64,000 bases of DNA, from NCBI GenBank assembly GCA_903642275.1, contig CAHJWK010000004.1, positions 1 to 64,000 on the forward strand, given 5' to 3'. Origin of the DNA: Chitinophagaceae bacterium (GTDB lineage Bacteria > Bacteroidota > Bacteroidia > Chitinophagales > Chitinophagaceae). The notes under the pieces were generated by a model. The model was not told the DNA's origin, did no database searches, and saw nothing but the letters and a program-made list of their open reading frames with translations. Position 1 is the first letter of the stretch; each line of letters starts with the position of its first letter. The position numbers were made by a program, and so were the translations under genes. Positions 13,608 through 50,419 of this stretch are shown here, in pieces.

Positions 13608-13859
13608 CTGTAAATCGCAACCGGCGACAGGTTTTTTGTAACCGGCGCCCTGTAAACTGCAACCGGCAGTAGGTTTTTTTAATCATGCACCTTGTAAATC
13701 GCAACCGGCGACAGATTTTTTGCAACCGGCACCTTGTAAACTGCAACCGGCAGTAAGTTTCTGCCATCTGTAACCTTGTAAACTGCAACCGGCAACAGGT
13801 TTTTATCCTCCGGCACTTTGTAGAAGCTAAACGGCAGCCCGTTTTTATATCCGCCCCTT
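13608..13859. repeat. six-copy imperfect 42-bp tandem repeat
   Basis: Units begin at 13608, 13650, 13691, 13733, 13775 and 13817, with lengths of 42, 41, 42, 42, 42 and 43. Each contains TGTAAA followed by GCAACCGGC and a T-rich end. Units 1 and 3 share AAATCGCAACCGGCGACAG, while 2, 4 and 5 share AAACTGCAACCGGCA. In the minus-strand frame from 13870 the 42-bp period gives a 14-residue repeat (KNLLPVAVYKV), broken by the 41-bp unit. The array ends 36 bases before the next gene's start. Confidence 0.92.
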
Positions 13860-41206: not shown

Positions 41207-41842
41207 TTAGCTCACCACAAGTTCGCCCGTATAGAAACTGTTGGATGCATCTTCGCCATCTACTGTAATGAAGGCAATCCAGGTTTCAATTGTTTGCCCT
41301 GCAAAAGGGCTAACGTCAAGTGTTGCTGAGCCTGAGTTGCGTGTGCCGTCACTGTTAGTAGAAATTGCCTGATTTAAACCGGGGCAAAAAGCAACCAGCA
41401 CTGCCTGATCCAACGGGTTGGTTCCGAGTACCTGGCTGTTATCTTTCCAGGTAAAATAAACCTGCCCACCCGTTACTGTAGCTGCCGGCGCAGTTGCGTT
41501 AGGCAAGTCTCCACGGCTTACCAGCGCTTTTGTATAATCAATAACATAATCAGGAGCTTTGCCTGTTACCGCGTTATTGTAATTGTACGAAACGGCTGCG
41601 TTGTTTTGAGACATTCTTACCGCATACTTTTTAAAAGTAAGCTGAATGATTGGCGTTAAGGCATTTACGAAGTTAATAACGATTGAAAACCTTAACTGAT
41701 GATCGATCTGATCTGCTGTTGATGTGCGTTTTTTAACCAGCGGCTGGCTACGCATATACGCTACATTTTTCCAAGAACTGCCAACTACGGGACCTACGGT
41801 GCCTGATACGGGACCGAGCATCCCTTTACTAAATCTACCCAT
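41207..41842 (-). CDS. DUF6266 family protein 1
   Basis: The 211-residue protein carries the family hallmarks: an N-terminal glycine-rich GMLGPVSGTVGPVVGSSWKN with YMRSQP, a helical core (FKKYAVRMSQNNAAVSYNYN, AVTGKAPDYVIDYTKALVSR), then an Ig-like beta domain with VYFTWKDNS and ETWIAFITVDGED and the end SFYTGELVV. Function is undescribed. It is about 50 percent like the protein at 50420, and both have the same upstream neighbours: an HTH gene and an 11-bp iteron array. No signal peptide is seen. Confidence 0.88.
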   Translation of the reverse strand: MGRFSKGMLGPVSGTVGPVVGSSWKNVAYMRSQPLVKKRTSTADQIDHQLRFSIVINFVNALTPIIQLTFKKYAVRMSQNNAAVSYNYNNAVTGKAPDYVIDYTKALVSRGDLPNATAPAATVTGGQVYFTWKDNSQVLGTNPLDQAVLVAFCPGLNQAISTNSDGTRNSGSATLDVSPFAGQTIETWIAFITVDGEDASNSFYTGELVVS

Positions 41843-41963
41843 TGGTTTTTTAATTTAAATGATAAGATATTGTTAGTGCAAGTGCCACGTGCAAACCGGT
41901 ATTACATTAAGCATATTGCACAACGAATGTATTTATGCTTTACTATTGAAAAATGAAGTGTGT

Positions 41964-42006
41964 TGCAGATTGCACGTTATTGCACAAGATTGCATGTAAT
42001 TGCATT
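41964..42006. repeat. TTGCA repeats at 10-bp spacing
   Basis: TTGCA occurs at 41963, then ATTGCA at 41969, 41979, 41989 and 41999, the last four exactly ten bases apart. The 10-bp period places them on one face of the helix. They lie between the iterons and the start of DUF6266 gene 1. Confidence 0.75.
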
Positions 42007-42082
42007 AATTATTATGATGATAGTTTTACTTATGCTATTAAAAAGCTTTGTTTTGTTTGGAGAAATGGACCTGACCTGTAAA

Positions 42083-42192
42083 CCAATAGCTGATGTATGG
42101 CTGGTGTATGCGAAGTGTATGCAAAACCTATATACAACCTATACAAAACCTATATAACTCCTATATGCAGCCTATATAAAACCTATAGAAAG
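42083..42192 (-). promoter_or_regulatory. 11-bp iteron array 1
   Basis: On the + strand CCTAT starts at 42127, 42138, 42149, 42160, 42171 and 42182, exactly every 11 bases, and degenerate units (TGTAT or CCAAT) continue the phase at 42116, 42105, 42094 and 42083. Read in the direction of the flanking genes the unit is ATAGGTTTTGT-like. The array begins about 40 bases after the HTH stop and ends 240 bases before DUF6266 gene 1. Probable binding site array for a protein, perhaps the HTH product. Confidence 0.8.
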
Positions 42193-42232: not shown

Positions 42233-42502
42233 TTAGTAATGCAGGGTTTGCTCTAATATCTGGAGAATGCCGGGCAGGTAATAGAAAATTCTTTTGTCGA
42301 GCATGGAAAAAGGGAATATGCCCCTATCATGATAATATTGCATAGTACGTAAGGAGAAACCAAAAGCCTGCATAACCGTTTGCCGGTTTACCCAATCTCC
42401 CGGTTTGGTGTTGATGGCTTTTATAGTAATTGATTTTTTAGCAGCTTTGGTAAGCCTGTGCCTTACAAACGGTTTCTGCGTTTGTTTTTTTGAATTGCGC
42501 AT
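42233..42502 (-). CDS. HTH protein paired with DUF6266 gene 1
   Basis: The ATG at 42502 (MRNSKKQTQKPFVRHRLTKA) is preferred; the frame extends to 42580 but adds no domain. The 89-residue product has a basic start, then the HTH-like core DWVNRQTVMQAFGFSLRTMQ and the end YYLPGILQILEQ, which matches the protein at 49556 (LEDWVDKSVILRALGF, YYLPGILFILEQ). This is a MerR/excisionase-type winged helix. It precedes the iterons and DUF6266 gene on the same strand, so it is likely their regulator or replication/transposition partner. Confidence 0.8.
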   Translation of the reverse strand: MRNSKKQTQKPFVRHRLTKAAKKSITIKAINTKPGDWVNRQTVMQAFGFSLRTMQYYHDRGIFPFSMLDKRIFYYLPGILQILEQTLHY

Positions 42503-42952
42503 ATGACAAGGATATTGGTTACAAAAAAGGAGTTGCAATTTATTAAATCCTGTTTTTATACCAGATATGTGAAAAGACATAAAAATATCCTCTGAGGACG
42601 GTGTGGTATGAGGCTTTAATTATTTATATATTTTTTATTTCGAACATGTTTGCTTTTAAATGTGTTAATTAATGCTTTTATTATATACTTTTTCTCTTGA
42701 AAGAAAAAGTAACAAAAAATTCAAGGACAAATGATAAGCAACACATTTATCTCGTTGAATTTTTATTTTAATTGTCTCGATGAATGCTTCGCGTTTGTCC
42801 GTTCGCCCTGATTTAGCTTTAATACTATTGCTCTTTCAACTTTGTTGCAATGATGCCTAATCAATGTTTTTACAACGTATTAAGAAGCAAGTATTTGTAT
42901 TGCCAGTGCACGGGACGCTAATTGTTTTAAGTTGTGTATTTAACTTGCGATA
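42503..42952. other. AT-rich gap with palindromic repeat
   Basis: No gene. ACTTTTTCTCTTGAAAGAAA-AAGT at 42688-42711 is an 8-bp stem palindrome followed by AACAAAAAATTCAAGG, a word combination often seen between Bacteroidota genes. A further stretch (GTCTCGATGAATGCTTCGCG) resembles the CATTCATCGAGAC words elsewhere in the window, inverted. Confidence 0.5.
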
Positions 42953-43063: not shown

Positions 43064-43846
43064 TTATTTAAAATTAAACTTAGCAAAGTACTCATCTATT
43101 TCAGAATGAAGTTCTATTCCAACTTTTTCAAAAGCATCTAAAAGCTGCTGGTATGTTCCTTCGCCACCTAGAAAATCCCAAAATTCTTCACCTACTTTTA
43201 ATTCATTAGGTAAATCCAACATCCCTCTCATTGTCCAGCGATTGTATGGTTGTGGATAATAAGGATTATAAGGAATAGCAATAAGTGTTTGTATATTTAA
43301 GGTGGGATCTTCAGCAAGTCCCGCAGCAATCCATTCTAATAATGTTCTTTTAAATTCTTTAAAACCACCGGCATTCGGCTTTGCAGTTTTTAAGTCAAAA
43401 AGAATAACATCTCCATTACTTCTAACCAACTTTACATCAACTTTAGTAAGTCTAACTGCTCGCATTTGTCCTTTCTGACAAACCGCTCTTATCGCTTCTA
43501 TTTCATATATTTTATTCGGATTAATTGTAGCAGTTGTTAAGCCAGTCATAATATGTTCTATAACCAAAAATGCTTCTGAACTCATTTGCAAACCAGCTAC
43601 CTGTTGAGACGATGCACTTTCAAAATTATCCATTGCAATTGCTTTGGCTACAGGCTCAAAAATACTTGTACCAAAATTTGTATTAAGGGAATGAATAAAT
43701 GAAAACAAAGCCATTCTATCCCTGCCCAAGAGCCTTGTATGAAAAGGCATTGCAGCGGGTTCAGGTTTATAATTTAGAAACTTATTCCGTAAACTATTTC
43801 TTAAAACAGTTTCGACGTTTTGTATTTGTACTGGAGTAAGTGCCAC
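43064..43846 (-). CDS. TdeIII/MjaII family type II restriction endonuclease
   Basis: The 260-residue protein matches the family from end to end: PFHTRLLGRDRMALFSFIHS, NTNFGTSIFEPVAKAIA, TTATINPNKIYEIEAIRAVC, KVDVKLVRSNGDVILFDLKT (Asp and DxK of a PD-(D/E)xK core), FKEFKRTLLEWIAAGL, IAIPYNPYYPQPYNRWTMRG and EEFWDFLGGEGTYQQLLDAF. Known members cut GGNCC; that specificity is therefore likely here. It is the last of four genes on this strand, 15 bases after the Mrr-like gene. The protecting methyltransferase is the first gene of the same unit. Confidence 0.93.
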   Translation of the reverse strand: MALTPVQIQNVETVLRNSLRNKFLNYKPEPAAMPFHTRLLGRDRMALFSFIHSLNTNFGTSIFEPVAKAIAMDNFESASSQQVAGLQMSSEAFLVIEHIMTGLTTATINPNKIYEIEAIRAVCQKGQMRAVRLTKVDVKLVRSNGDVILFDLKTAKPNAGGFKEFKRTLLEWIAAGLAEDPTLNIQTLIAIPYNPYYPQPYNRWTMRGMLDLPNELKVGEEFWDFLGGEGTYQQLLDAFEKVGIELHSEIDEYFAKFNFK

Positions 43847-43861
43847 TATATTTATGTAAGT

Positions 43862-44611
43862 TTATACGATTTCAACAAAATTTATATCATTTTTCAGGTT
43901 TGTTAAATTTAATTCTCCAGAAGGGTATATCCAATCAATTTTTTTTTGAATTATCCCTTGAGCACATAAGCAACAAATATCTATAATATCTAAATAAATA
44001 ATATCAGTGCTTCTACAAAGTCTTATAGATTCCTCACTATAAAAATAACTTGCCATAAAATACACATGAATATGAGAAAAAGTATTAAGTAAAAATCTTG
44101 TATACTTAGGATTAACTGTACTAAATTCTTTTCTTGAAAATAATATTACTGAGCCTGCTAATTGCCTTATCTCTCCTGTGCCCACTAAATTATTTTCAAA
44201 ATGCTTACATTGTCCGAGAATACAATGTTTGATGTCAATATTTAATTTATCAAAATTTGATTGTGCAATAAAATCAATTCCTTGATCGTGGGAAACTTTT
44301 GTACCATAAAAATTTTCATACCCTAAACAACTGCAAACAACAGCTGAAAGTTTTTCAAATTCACTAGGAGACAATTTAATTATTTGGTCTAGCAACAAGT
44401 GTAAAAAAGAATGCTTTTTAATAAATAAGGCATTTGCATTATCTATTTCAAATATTAATTCTTTGTATTTCGTTGAGTATTTTTCTAAAAATGAAGATAT
44501 ATCATTGACATCTATCCCATTAGTTACTTCATCATAATCGAAAAAATTAATACTATTTGTGGGATTAAGAAAAAGCTTGATTGATAGATTTCGTGTTACA
44601 GCGAGATTCAT
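43862..44611 (-). CDS. Mrr-like restriction endonuclease domain protein
   Basis: The 249-residue protein has about 75 unmatched residues followed by an Mrr_cat-type nuclease: KLSPSEFEKLSAVVCSCLGY, TKVSHDQGIDFIAQSNFDKL (Asp) and KHCILGQCKHFENNLVGTGE (QxK in place of ExK), then EIRQLAGSVILFS. This is the fold of nucleases that cut modified or foreign DNA. The C-terminal third is unassigned (HVYFMASYFYSEESIRLCRS). Its start overlaps the ParB-like gene's stop by four bases (ATGA), so it is translated with it. Role in the island is unclear: a second nuclease, or a recognition partner. Confidence 0.85.
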   Translation of the reverse strand: MNLAVTRNLSIKLFLNPTNSINFFDYDEVTNGIDVNDISSFLEKYSTKYKELIFEIDNANALFIKKHSFLHLLLDQIIKLSPSEFEKLSAVVCSCLGYENFYGTKVSHDQGIDFIAQSNFDKLNIDIKHCILGQCKHFENNLVGTGEIRQLAGSVILFSRKEFSTVNPKYTRFLLNTFSHIHVYFMASYFYSEESIRLCRSTDIIYLDIIDICCLCAQGIIQKKIDWIYPSGELNLTNLKNDINFVEIV

Positions 44612-45696
44612 TTTTGATTGTTTTTAGACAAAAATTCATTCATAAGATCTTTTATTACTTGCATTGAATTTTTATCCTCCTTGGTATAACTTAATATATT
44701 ACCGATGGGAATATTCACAAGAGTTTTTTCTATATTTTTAATAATCTTAGAAAACTGCCTTTGCGTATAAGCATAATTTTGACTCAGAGTTTCATTAAAA
44801 TTACGTGTCCTTTCCATGTATTCTAATGTCTCCTCATCATCTATAATATTTTCTAACTCTCTTACTTCCTTATGATTCAAAATGATTGGATCAATAATTT
44901 CAGATTCATTAGATTCATCATCGGTTTCAATCAGTGGGGTTATCCAAGAAAAAAATCTTTTTTTATTATCTGAATTTTTGAAACTAAAAGTATTCTCATC
45001 CCAGCCTATCCATTTTTTTAACTTTGGCTTTGTTGTTAATTCAATAAACATTTGTAGTTTTTGATAAGGATCAAACCTATCTCCATAGTTTTCAGATTTT
45101 ATCTCCTCTAAAAACTCTTGAATCGCCAAATATCCTCGAATTTGTTGCTCAACGGAGCTCTTATTTAAGCCAATTTTTTTAGCAATGTCAATTTCTTTCT
45201 CTCCTTGATTTTTTAATTCGTATAATAGTTTTGATTGATTGTATGTGTCCCATTTTTTATTTCCACTTACATGCTTTAACCCCATTAGTATCAAATAATC
45301 CTTATCATTTAGATAAATATATAAGACAACTTCAATAGGGCTATCAAGGAAAGATGGATCAAGAATACCAATATCGTATCCCTTATCTTTTTGCTCTTTT
45401 AATACTTTTAAAGCAGCGAGCCTTCTATTGCCTTCAATGACCAAATAATTTTCACTATTTTCATACCTTTTAACAAGAATATTATCTACTTTTAAAAATC
45501 CATTTATTTTAATACTTTCTATCAGATCATTTATTTTGAAATTATTTTCCCCTGCAATAAAATATGTTGTTCTTTTTTGAATACCAGGTTTTAAAATACT
45601 TTTTTCATCAATGATGTTCCAATCAGGATTGCTTCTTAATCTATAATTATTTGGGTCAAGAAATAAATTCTCTAGTCTTACTTTTATTGCCTCCAT
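44608..45696 (-). CDS. ParB-like nuclease domain protein
   Basis: The 362-residue protein starts with the ParB/Sulfiredoxin fold: KVRLENLFLDPNNYRLRSNP, INDLIESIKINGFLKVDNIL, then YLVIEGNRRLAALKVLKEQK (the ENRRLxAL box) and VVLYIYLNDKDY. An HTH-like part follows (EIDIAKKIGLNKSSVEQQIR), so the chain has both ParB nuclease-like and DNA-binding segments. It is not a plasmid partition pair, since no ParA is present. ParB-like proteins of this form are frequent in restriction and defence islands. The start lies one base after the methyltransferase stop. Confidence 0.87.
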   Translation of the reverse strand: MEAIKVRLENLFLDPNNYRLRSNPDWNIIDEKSILKPGIQKRTTYFIAGENNFKINDLIESIKINGFLKVDNILVKRYENSENYLVIEGNRRLAALKVLKEQKDKGYDIGILDPSFLDSPIEVVLYIYLNDKDYLILMGLKHVSGNKKWDTYNQSKLLYELKNQGEKEIDIAKKIGLNKSSVEQQIRGYLAIQEFLEEIKSENYGDRFDPYQKLQMFIELTTKPKLKKWIGWDENTFSFKNSDNKKRFFSWITPLIETDDESNESEIIDPIILNHKEVRELENIIDDEETLEYMERTRNFNETLSQNYAYTQRQFSKIIKNIEKTLVNIPIGNILSYTKEDKNSMQVIKDLMNEFLSKNNQK

Positions 45697-45697
45697 A

Positions 45698-47293
45698 TTA
45701 TTGAGTCTTTAAATGAAATATTATTTCAGAATAAGCACTTTTATCTTTTTCTGTCCTATTTAAAACAGGTCTTTTAAATTGATTTACGATTTGCATTCCT
45801 GCATTTTCAGCAATGGTTGGATACATATTGTATTTATCATTTGCGACTAAGAAAACATCATAATCTTTCACAAAGAATTGCTTGCAATTTTTTAATACAT
45901 CACTTATGCCTTTTATGTAACTATTTTTTGCTTCTTTGCCTTGACCTTTAAAAAGCGGACCAATTTCTAGTTCATCTTTTCGTTCAAAGCCAAACAGATC
46001 GTAAGCATACGCATGTTGTTCGTGATAATCAATTAAACCAACATAAGGAGGCGAAGAGAATATGCCTTTTATTTTTTCCTTTTTCACTACATCAGCAAAA
46101 GATGAACTGTTTTGTTCAAGTTCTTTAAAAATATCAATATGTCTGCTATCACCTGTTAAGCAGTATTGGAAGGTATCTGTTCGTGATTTATCAAATTGAG
46201 CTAAGCGTTTAATTGTGTCTTTGGAATATGTTTCCCACCATTTTAAAATGGAAAATAAAGGCTTGCATATTTTACCATGCTTAGAGCAATAATAAGTTGT
46301 AGTTATGGGTTCATCAACAAGTGTTGCAAGATCAGCGTGTGTAGTAGCACGACAGGAGCGAATAGCACGACTTAATATAACGCTTATAATTTTTTTTGTT
46401 TTTTGATTTGGTATTTTTTTAATCTCGTTAAAAACAAATTCAATTTCATTTCTTACATGTTGCGAATACCACTTATCTAAAAAATTATCAGATTTATCCT
46501 GTCTTAATTTAATCTTATATTCTTCAATAAGTTTTTTATAAACTGGTAAAAATTGTTCTTCTTTTTCCTTTCCGTATTTATCTTCATTAATTAATCCCTG
46601 CTTTAAATCATATTTATATTTTGGAACAGGAAAACACTCTGTGTTAAACTTATATAATTCACCCAGCAGTTTTTGTTCAAATTCAATTGAATGCGCATTT
46701 TCGAGAAATTTTTTTAGTTCAGTAGTTATGCGATTAATTTCTTCTTGGACATTTAATAAGTCATACTTGATTACTTTACAATTTGCAATCAGTGTATTAA
46801 AAATAGAAACATCAATACCAATCGCATGCATTCCTAATTCTGAAGCCTGAACCATTGTTGTTCCGCTGCCAGAGAATGGATCAAGAATTATATCTCCTTT
46901 TTTAAAATAAACTTCTTTTTTAAAATTATCAGTGTGATTATCTAAAAAGTATTCAACAAGTTGTGGAATGAACTTTCCTTTGTATGGATGAAGCCTGTGA
47001 ACATGTTTTGTAGTTTCAGATTCTTTATATTTATCAAACGATAAAGTCCAGTTTAAATCTTCACCAAGTTTGTCTTTGTAATTTGTTTCCCTGTAACCAT
47101 TATAAGATTTATAGTATTGTATTAGTTCGTCTTTTAAAATTTGAGGAGAGCCATTTTTTCCAATCTTTTTTATTCTTCCATATTGTATAAGGTAAGAGAT
47201 GTTTGAGATAGTTACTATTTTGCCAATATGAGAAGTTGCCCATTCGCTAGCTTCTTTTATTGTGAATAATTCTTCTTTTTCAAACACTTTCAT
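45698..47293 (-). CDS. DNA methyltransferase, SPPY type (probably N4-cytosine)
   Basis: The ATG at 47293 is preferred over the TTG one codon up. Residues 10-60 form a MerR-like HTH (FTIKEASEWATSHIGKIVTI). The catalytic part has HPYKGKFIPQLVEYFL, SAM motif I IILDPFSGSGTTMVQASELG, GIDVSIFNTLIANCK, and later motif IV FSSPPYVGLIDYHEQHAY. SPPY is typical of N4-cytosine enzymes. The order SAM motif before SPPY, with a long insert of about 250 residues containing the target-recognition part, fits the partners of TdeIII/MjaII endonucleases. It protects the host at the shared site, probably GGNCC. First gene of the island operon. Confidence 0.9.
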   Translation of the reverse strand: MKVFEKEELFTIKEASEWATSHIGKIVTISNISYLIQYGRIKKIGKNGSPQILKDELIQYYKSYNGYRETNYKDKLGEDLNWTLSFDKYKESETTKHVHRLHPYKGKFIPQLVEYFLDNHTDNFKKEVYFKKGDIILDPFSGSGTTMVQASELGMHAIGIDVSIFNTLIANCKVIKYDLLNVQEEINRITTELKKFLENAHSIEFEQKLLGELYKFNTECFPVPKYKYDLKQGLINEDKYGKEKEEQFLPVYKKLIEEYKIKLRQDKSDNFLDKWYSQHVRNEIEFVFNEIKKIPNQKTKKIISVILSRAIRSCRATTHADLATLVDEPITTTYYCSKHGKICKPLFSILKWWETYSKDTIKRLAQFDKSRTDTFQYCLTGDSRHIDIFKELEQNSSSFADVVKKEKIKGIFSSPPYVGLIDYHEQHAYAYDLFGFERKDELEIGPLFKGQGKEAKNSYIKGISDVLKNCKQFFVKDYDVFLVANDKYNMYPTIAENAGMQIVNQFKRPVLNRTEKDKSAYSEIIFHLKTQ

Positions 47294-47367
47294 CAATTTT
47301 TAATAAAACAAATTTAATATAGATGAAATGCACAAAATTGTTATCATTGTTTTTTTAAATTTCATCA

Positions 47368-49555: not shown

Positions 49556-49825
49556 ATGAAAGCCAAAAAACACACACCAAAAATCACTGTTCCTGCAACC
49601 GTAACTTTTATCAACGGCAACAAACACATTACTATGCAAATTCAAAACACCCGCCTTGAAGACTGGGTAGATAAATCAGTCATTTTACGGGCACTTGGTT
49701 TTACAGATAAAACTTTGCGCACTTTAAGGGGTAATAAAATAATTCCATGTGGAAAGTTGGGAGGGTCATACCGCTATTACCTGCCCGGCATCCTGTTCAT
49801 CCTCGAACAAAGCGCAGCCTGCTAA
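49556..49825 (+). CDS. HTH protein paired with DUF6266 gene 2
   Basis: An 89-residue basic protein with the core LEDWVDKSVILRALGFTDKT, LRGNKIIPCGKLGGSYRYYL and the end PGILFILEQ, paralogous to the protein at 42233 although only modestly identical. It has the winged-helix (MerR/Xis-like) pattern. The next gene on the same strand is DUF6266 gene 2, with an 11-bp iteron array in between, as at the first locus. Confidence 0.8.
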   Translation: MKAKKHTPKITVPATVTFINGNKHITMQIQNTRLEDWVDKSVILRALGFTDKTLRTLRGNKIIPCGKLGGSYRYYLPGILFILEQSAAC

Positions 49826-50419
49826 AGCTAAATTCTTCGGTTGTATTTTGTTCTGGCTTCATGTTATTCATAATTAATCAATAACACTGCACGTCATTCC
49901 CGCGCAGGCGGAAATCTGTTCTTGTAATTATTTGCTTATTTCGATACCACACCCTTAATTATTTAATCCGGCCAATCCATTAATCTAAAAAATATAAGTT
50001 CAGCTATTCCCTTCTTGCCCTTCTCTTTCGGAGAGGGGTTGGGGTGAGGTCTTCTTGCCCTCCTCTTTTGGAGAAGGGTTGGGATGAGGTTCCCTTCAAC
50101 TACCTTGTAGGGACCTGATAGGGAACTGGAAGGGACCTTGTAGGGACTTAAAAGGAACGTTAAAAAATGTATGCTGACGCATGTTTTTCCTGTAAGCTGT
50201 AGCGTTGTTTTCAGGCGTTTAAATAAACTTAAAAGTTATGTACTTAAAATCAGGGCATGGTAAAATCAGGAAAAAAAGGGAAGAATGTGCCGGTTCACGG
50301 TAATAAGTGCCTGTTGAATAAAATGCATAAAACGCTTTTCTACATTCGTATCTGGAAAGCAGGGCAGCCATTGTTGCCAGGCTTTAAATCCAATATTACT
50401 TTATAAAAAACCATTTAAA
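49826..50419. other. intergenic region of DUF6266 locus 2
   Basis: No gene is supported. It carries CGTCATTCCCGCGCAGGCGG (49890), two nearly repeated CTTGCCCTTCTCTTTCGGAG/CTTGCCCTCCTCTTTTGGAG units (50020-50090, reminiscent of ACCCCAACCCTTCTCCTCGT at 62134) and the iterons at 50105-50159. After 50160 the sequence is AT-rich up to the DUF6266 start, with no clear promoter. Confidence 0.6.
50105..50159 (+). promoter_or_regulatory. 11-bp iteron array 2
   Basis: Five contiguous 11-base units: TTGTAGGGACC, TGATAGGGAAC, TGGAAGGGACC, TTGTAGGGACT, TAAAAGGAACG. An inverted partial unit (TTCCCTTCAAC) precedes them at 50090. The array ends 260 bases before DUF6266 gene 2, close to the 240 bases at locus 1, and the shared core is T-A-GG. 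Confidence 0.82.

Follow-up and report, generated by a model that had tools for sequence, protein, structure and literature searches.

Arrays of short sites one helix turn apart upstream of DUF6266 promoters in Bacteroidota: candidate operators for a small regulator

Two DUF6266 loci and their arrays

The window, by which we mean the whole 64,000-nucleotide stretch that was analysed (positions 1 to 64,000 of contig CAHJWK010000004.1, assembly GCA_903642275.1, Chitinophagaceae bacterium), carries two loci at which a gene of the DUF6266 family is preceded by a putative promoter box, an array of short direct repeats and a small HTH gene. The features, in order of position, are as follows.

41207..41842, minus strand: DUF6266 gene 1 (PF19781, E 7.4e-50)
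41924..41931, minus strand: putative -7 promoter box TACATTCG of locus 1, at a position that agrees with the box enriched across loci
41967..42010, minus strand: proximal 10-bp array, four units TGCAATnnnn on the gene strand
42083..42126, no strand assigned: weaker 11-bp units in the same phase, with TGTATG at 42094, 42105 and 42116 and a marginal unit at 42083
42127..42192, no strand assigned: six strong 11-bp units, core CCTATA on the plus strand and TATAGG on the DUF6266 strand
42233..42580, minus strand: small HTH_17/MerR-like protein directly upstream of the locus 1 array; its true start may be internal
49556..49825, plus strand: small HTH_17-like gene upstream of array 2, of the same HTH subgroup as 42233-42580
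50102..50165, plus strand: 11-bp array of DUF6266 gene 2, units TAGGGAnnnnn
50341..50348, plus strand: putative -7 promoter box TACATTCG of gene 2, 79 bp 5' of the start codon
50420..51055, plus strand: DUF6266 gene 2 (PF19781, E 1.4e-54)

The initial annotation described locus 1 as a ten-unit array with an exact 11-bp period. The period and the six strong units are borne out, CCTAT beginning at 42127, 42138, 42149, 42160, 42171 and 42182 exactly as had been given. The weaker units, said to continue in phase down to 42083, number three to four: those with the TGTATG core hold, and the tenth is marginal. By TRF, 42123-42191 is a period-11 repeat with 75% matches and no indels, and 42089-42110 is listed as well. 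Autocorrelation, which had been proposed as a check, gives the same period, with a match fraction of 0.70 at lag 11, 0.59 at 22, 0.57 at 33 and 0.55 at 44, and 0.08-0.41 at other lags. The top 66-bp window at locus 1 scores 0.78 versus a maximum of 0.53 in 2000 dinucleotide shuffles. This array is the top 11-bp signal of the 64 kb. Scores of at least 0.55 occur there at two places only, the arrays of locus 1 and locus 2, and the latter, at 50102, also passes at 0.6; here and below, several cut-offs (0.5, 0.55, 66-bp windows) were in use and were picked during the analysis.

The array of locus 2 differs from that of locus 1 in its unit sequence, and the two have a TAGG core in common on the gene strand (TATAGG and TAGGGA). 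The end of the 11-bp array lies 169 bp from the box at locus 1 and 170 bp at locus 2. At locus 1, the box TACATTCG is 89 bp 5' of the start codon and about 24 bp past the 10-bp array. Other repeats were seen in the window, namely a 40-bp direct repeat (CTTCTTGCCC...) at 50011-50090, immediately 5' of the locus 2 array, and a 42-bp tandem repeat of about five copies at 13609-13822. Beside locus 1, a TdeIII-type restriction endonuclease gene and an adjoining methyltransferase-like gene occupy 43064-47296, a region of low GC.

The literature searched held no paper naming DUF6266. The AlphaFold model predicts an FnIII domain at the C-terminus; the model of the N-terminal half found no PDB match by Foldseek at E 0.001, which we take as neutral evidence. 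The array-linked genes at L251 and L275 were considered as DUF6266 relatives, and the relation was not supported.

Conserved layout across Bacteroidota

For comparison, 150 non-redundant DUF6266 loci of Bacteroidota were assembled from genus, family, order and class searches together with named genomes; a set of 80 loci was obtained with a narrower alignment and favours canonical DUF6266. At a score of at least 0.5, period 11 is found in 66 of the 150 loci, period 10 in 28 and the harmonic 20 in 28, with 2-8 loci at each other period. In the first set of 118 loci, the upstream region passes at period 11 in 29% and at period 10 in 21%; arrays of these periods were found in none of 110 downstream control regions and in at most one of 65 regions far upstream. 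Six DUF6266 loci were found in the source genome, including, beyond the window, L006 with a clear 11-bp array and L003 with a 10-bp array. Across 1.2 Mb of this genome, which with the window forms our own-genome background and is a part of the complete genome, 11-bp windows of at least 0.55 fall at three places, one of which is a DUF6266 locus; in 400 kb scanned of genome G133 there were none at threshold. A second AGGGA-type 11-bp array of the source genome (L346:9449, contig C33 of G000) lies away from DUF6266. Some DUF6266 loci have phage-type genes beside them (a holin, PF05105, follows L117, and DUF5675 precedes L116 and L190), and no DUF6266 relatives were found in plasmid or phage collections.

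The arrays are non-coding and precede a putative promoter box, TAnnTTTG, which is enriched at -100 to -76 (23 loci versus 0-3 in other bins). In 15 of the 15 loci with a recognisable box, the 3' edge of the 10-bp array stands 15-30 bp before it. A divergent DUF6266 subfamily has its 11-bp array near the gene instead. Two further elements, CCAAGTCC and the palindromic GTACCGGTAC, recur at -80 to -30, past the -7 box and ahead of the start codon.

TTCG/CGAA recurs on an 11-bp grid in 37 of the 150 loci, and on grids of 9, 10, 12 and 13 bp in 0-1 loci; GCAA recurs on a 10-bp grid in 21 loci, on the gene strand in 19 and on the opposite strand in 2. Many of the 11-bp arrays change polarity midway: both TTCG and CGAA units recur in 27 loci, mostly with TTCG first and in the register TTCG-N8-CGAA across the centre. 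TTCG and CGAA stand 12 bp apart in this register and 15 bp apart in the L006-like subfamily. Some centres, TTCGGGAATTCCCGAA and TTCGCAAATTTGCGAA among them, are perfectly palindromic.

Related loci, a comparison of orthologues having been suggested at the outset, keep the 11-bp period while the bases change, and their well-aligned arrays are free of slippage-type indels. L042 and L043 differ by 25 substitutions, L207 and L208 by 7, and L120 and L123 by 5, in each case with no indel; L004 and L014 are set apart by 29 substitutions, by one complete 11-bp unit that only one of them has, and by a single base close to the array edge. Some more distant pairs (L011/L012, L209/L210 and L017/L020) show further gaps, most of which fall at the array edges or beyond them, in stretches of uncertain alignment. 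A slippage tract (VNTR) was rejected, since the units differ in bases and well-aligned arrays differ by substitutions with almost no indels. The arrays are a conserved layout of helix-turn-spaced short sites just upstream of DUF6266 promoters, and with it the patchily distributed, unstudied DUF6266 family gains a conserved promoter architecture.

A possible operator and its binder

We put the chances at about even that these are cooperative operator arrays, docking strips for a small regulator that controls DUF6266. Each would act as a multi-site operator, its short half-sites 11 bp apart on one helix face, where molecules of a small DNA-binding protein would assemble cooperatively, head to tail; the assembled protein would then control, by activation or by repression, the DUF6266 promoter about 170 bp downstream. 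The second array, of period 10 and directly before the promoter box, would be part of that promoter. The initial annotation had also proposed cooperative binding, of the kind found at iterons. Protein binding survives as a putative function that the non-coding, promoter-upstream position and the strand-specific 10-bp core fit, whereas "iteron" in the replication or plasmid sense finds no support, since the search of the plasmid and phage collections gave no DUF6266 relative and the arrays sit in a gene's upstream region.

The most likely binder in the window would be the adjoining MerR/BldC-like HTH protein (42233-42580; 49556-49825 at locus 2). A small HTH_17/MerR-like gene stands within 1.4 kb upstream of 24 of 143 loci, both loci of the window included, and adjoins the array in about 23 loci. 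Scanned sequence of the source genome holds few members of the family (6 matches, two of them in the window). The linked proteins have 68-142 aa, and 18 of 19 match HTH_17; the best PDB sequence matches of the family are the BldC-DNA complexes 6AMA and 6AMK, weak at E 0.005-0.02. Three arrangements tie the HTH gene to the array. At L272, an inserted gene parts DUF6266 and the 10-bp array from the 11-bp array and the HTH gene; in G007, an HTH gene and an 11-bp array are present and no DUF6266 was found; and in two related mobilizable elements of the source genome, an HTH_17 gene has a 10-bp array directly upstream. In G889, a search with the HTH family led to the HTH-array-DUF6266 arrangement. 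As to the elements themselves (L326:16136-16650 and L148:7507-8030, on contigs C6 and C11 of G000), they are integrative and mobilizable, the array consists of direct repeats, and the genes after HTH_17 appear from their sequence to be primase-, MobC- and relaxase-like.

An HTH gene within 1.4 kb is absent from 48 of the 63 array loci with enough upstream sequence (Fisher p 0.07), and the upstream neighbours of array loci lacking one have no family in common. Similarity of the array units does not follow HTH similarity significantly (Mantel r 0.09, p 0.21; partial given DUF6266 0.19, p 0.07). A post hoc split, whereby HTH proteins with YYLPGIL-type endings lacked a TTCG array in five loci and most others had one, was broken by L194. 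Since a linked HTH gene is missing from most array loci and the covariation is not significant, we name this binder tentatively, and other regulators, or DUF6266, could take its place.

It is, in our estimate, somewhat unlikely that the operator arrays are bound by another protein, either a chromosomal regulator acting in trans or DUF6266 as the regulator of its own promoter. The many array loci with no HTH neighbour point this way, the constant unit being array plus DUF6266, as does the greater likeness of array units between loci with more similar DUF6266 proteins (on average 0.40 at DUF6266 identities below 25% and 0.81 above 70%). However, shared descent alone would give the latter relation, which the N-terminal half of DUF6266 shows no more strongly than the C-terminal half, and the predicted FnIII fold of the C-terminus also argues against DUF6266 as the binder. 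In favour of a different regulator, a second small protein family (66 aa, unnamed in Pfam and NCBIfam) occurs directly before the L231 and L239 arrays and beside the array of L338. The L338 array itself (L338:11132-11270, contig C25 of G000) is a strand-flipping 11-bp array with a GTGTATG core and does not belong to DUF6266.

Copies of the arrays are also dispersed. Of 296 genomes of the family, 43 have matches to four TTCG units on the 11-bp grid, a single genome having as many as dozens that overlap; many matches lie away from DUF6266, and they also occur in genomes in which no DUF6266 was found. Furthermore, the upstream arrays of L057, L058 and L281 have copies elsewhere, within the genome or the genus, that match them at 88-96% identity over 94-124 bp. 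Such dispersed intergenic copies make a repeat-element origin possible, and they may represent a repeat element, a regulon, or the two together. In some genomes the reversed control pattern, too, has many matches, which indicates that arrays with other cores exist, and the 11-bp arrays amount to a wider class of intergenic element in Chitinophagaceae. Nevertheless, we find it quite improbable that they are dispersed REP- or MITE-like elements that merely persist near DUF6266 with no regulatory role. They are found upstream and never downstream of DUF6266 (0/110), only two 11-bp arrays of at least 0.55 lie off DUF6266 in the 1.2 Mb of source genome, and a rigid period under base turnover, a fixed centre register and 10-bp arrays abutting the promoter box are further points against this. 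REP/RAYT pairing was rejected, because arrays are missing from most Y1 transposase loci: among the Y1_Tnp loci examined, only 3 have one, and two of these are DUF6266 loci. At another locus (L257; G134 C11:58633), a TTCG 11-bp array adjoins a gene that, by its sequence, reads like Cas9.

Very improbable, finally, is that the arrays work as RNA or DNA hairpins or via intrinsic DNA curvature alone; inverted halves and perfect palindromic centres in some arrays would suit a hairpin, but complementarity outside the core is no higher at exact mirror positions (0.44) than at shifts of 11 (0.39-0.46), so that it is the unit sequence that is conserved rather than pairing, and selection for hairpins was dropped. 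Most arrays lie upstream of the promoter box, and neither TTCG nor AGGGA, for example, is an A-tract. With arms not complementary beyond unit similarity, protein half-sites explain the arrays better.

Within the cooperative-operator explanation, we also considered a bolder form, which we rate as unlikely: that a two-array cassette (11 bp distal, 10 bp proximal) travels with DUF6266, its unit re-specified at each locus while the geometry stays fixed, and each cassette having its own small HTH reader, so as to give orthogonal operator/regulator pairs within genomes. The many natural variants, in which the geometry is kept and the sequence changed, make operator-regulator co-evolution, and likewise cooperative head-to-tail DNA binding, directly testable in Bacteroidota.

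Comparison with known systems

Arrays of 11-bp direct repeats are reportedly bound cooperatively at the parC/ParR partition site of plasmid R1. The DUF6266 loci differ in that no partition ATPase or actin-like gene was seen at them and no plasmid match was found. Replication or partition iterons were rejected on the search of plasmids and phages, which gave no DUF6266 match, and on upstream neighbours that are unrelated to each other.

Closer likenesses are found among small winged-HTH proteins. RdfS, of the excisionase type, forms small oligomers that coat DNA of low conservation (PMC11963761); the HTH_17 genes of the mobilizable elements described above, with their upstream 10-bp arrays, resemble this arrangement, although the DUF6266 loci yielded neither an integrase nor an attachment site. 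BldC of Streptomyces, a very small MerR-like wHTH protein, binds cooperatively and head to tail on variable numbers of direct repeats (PMC5859096). Its subunit site, however, is 9 bp with an AATT core (AATTxxxxC), whereas the arrays here have period 11 and other cores; against the NCBIfam model HTH_BldC, the L272 protein scores 12.2 bits versus a cut-off of 77, and the window protein at 42236-42580 has no match.

The MerR-type protein CarH binds tandem 11-bp direct repeats from one DNA face through a winged HTH and tolerates degenerate repeats (PMC9304148). The operators of the CarH/CarA photoregulators (Thermus, Bacillus, Myxococcales) and the DUF6266 arrays both consist of contiguous, exact 11-bp direct repeats. 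The CarH operators have three to five repeats that overlap -35/-10, and CarH carries a B12-binding domain; unlike them, the DUF6266 arrays reach about ten units, lie farther upstream and often have an inverted half, and in place of the TnnACA core of CarH they show TATAGG, TAGGGA, TTCG and others. By analogy, the DUF6266 arrays would stand close to known operators, to the tandem 11-bp repeats of CarH and the head-to-tail arrays of BldC, but be distinct from both.
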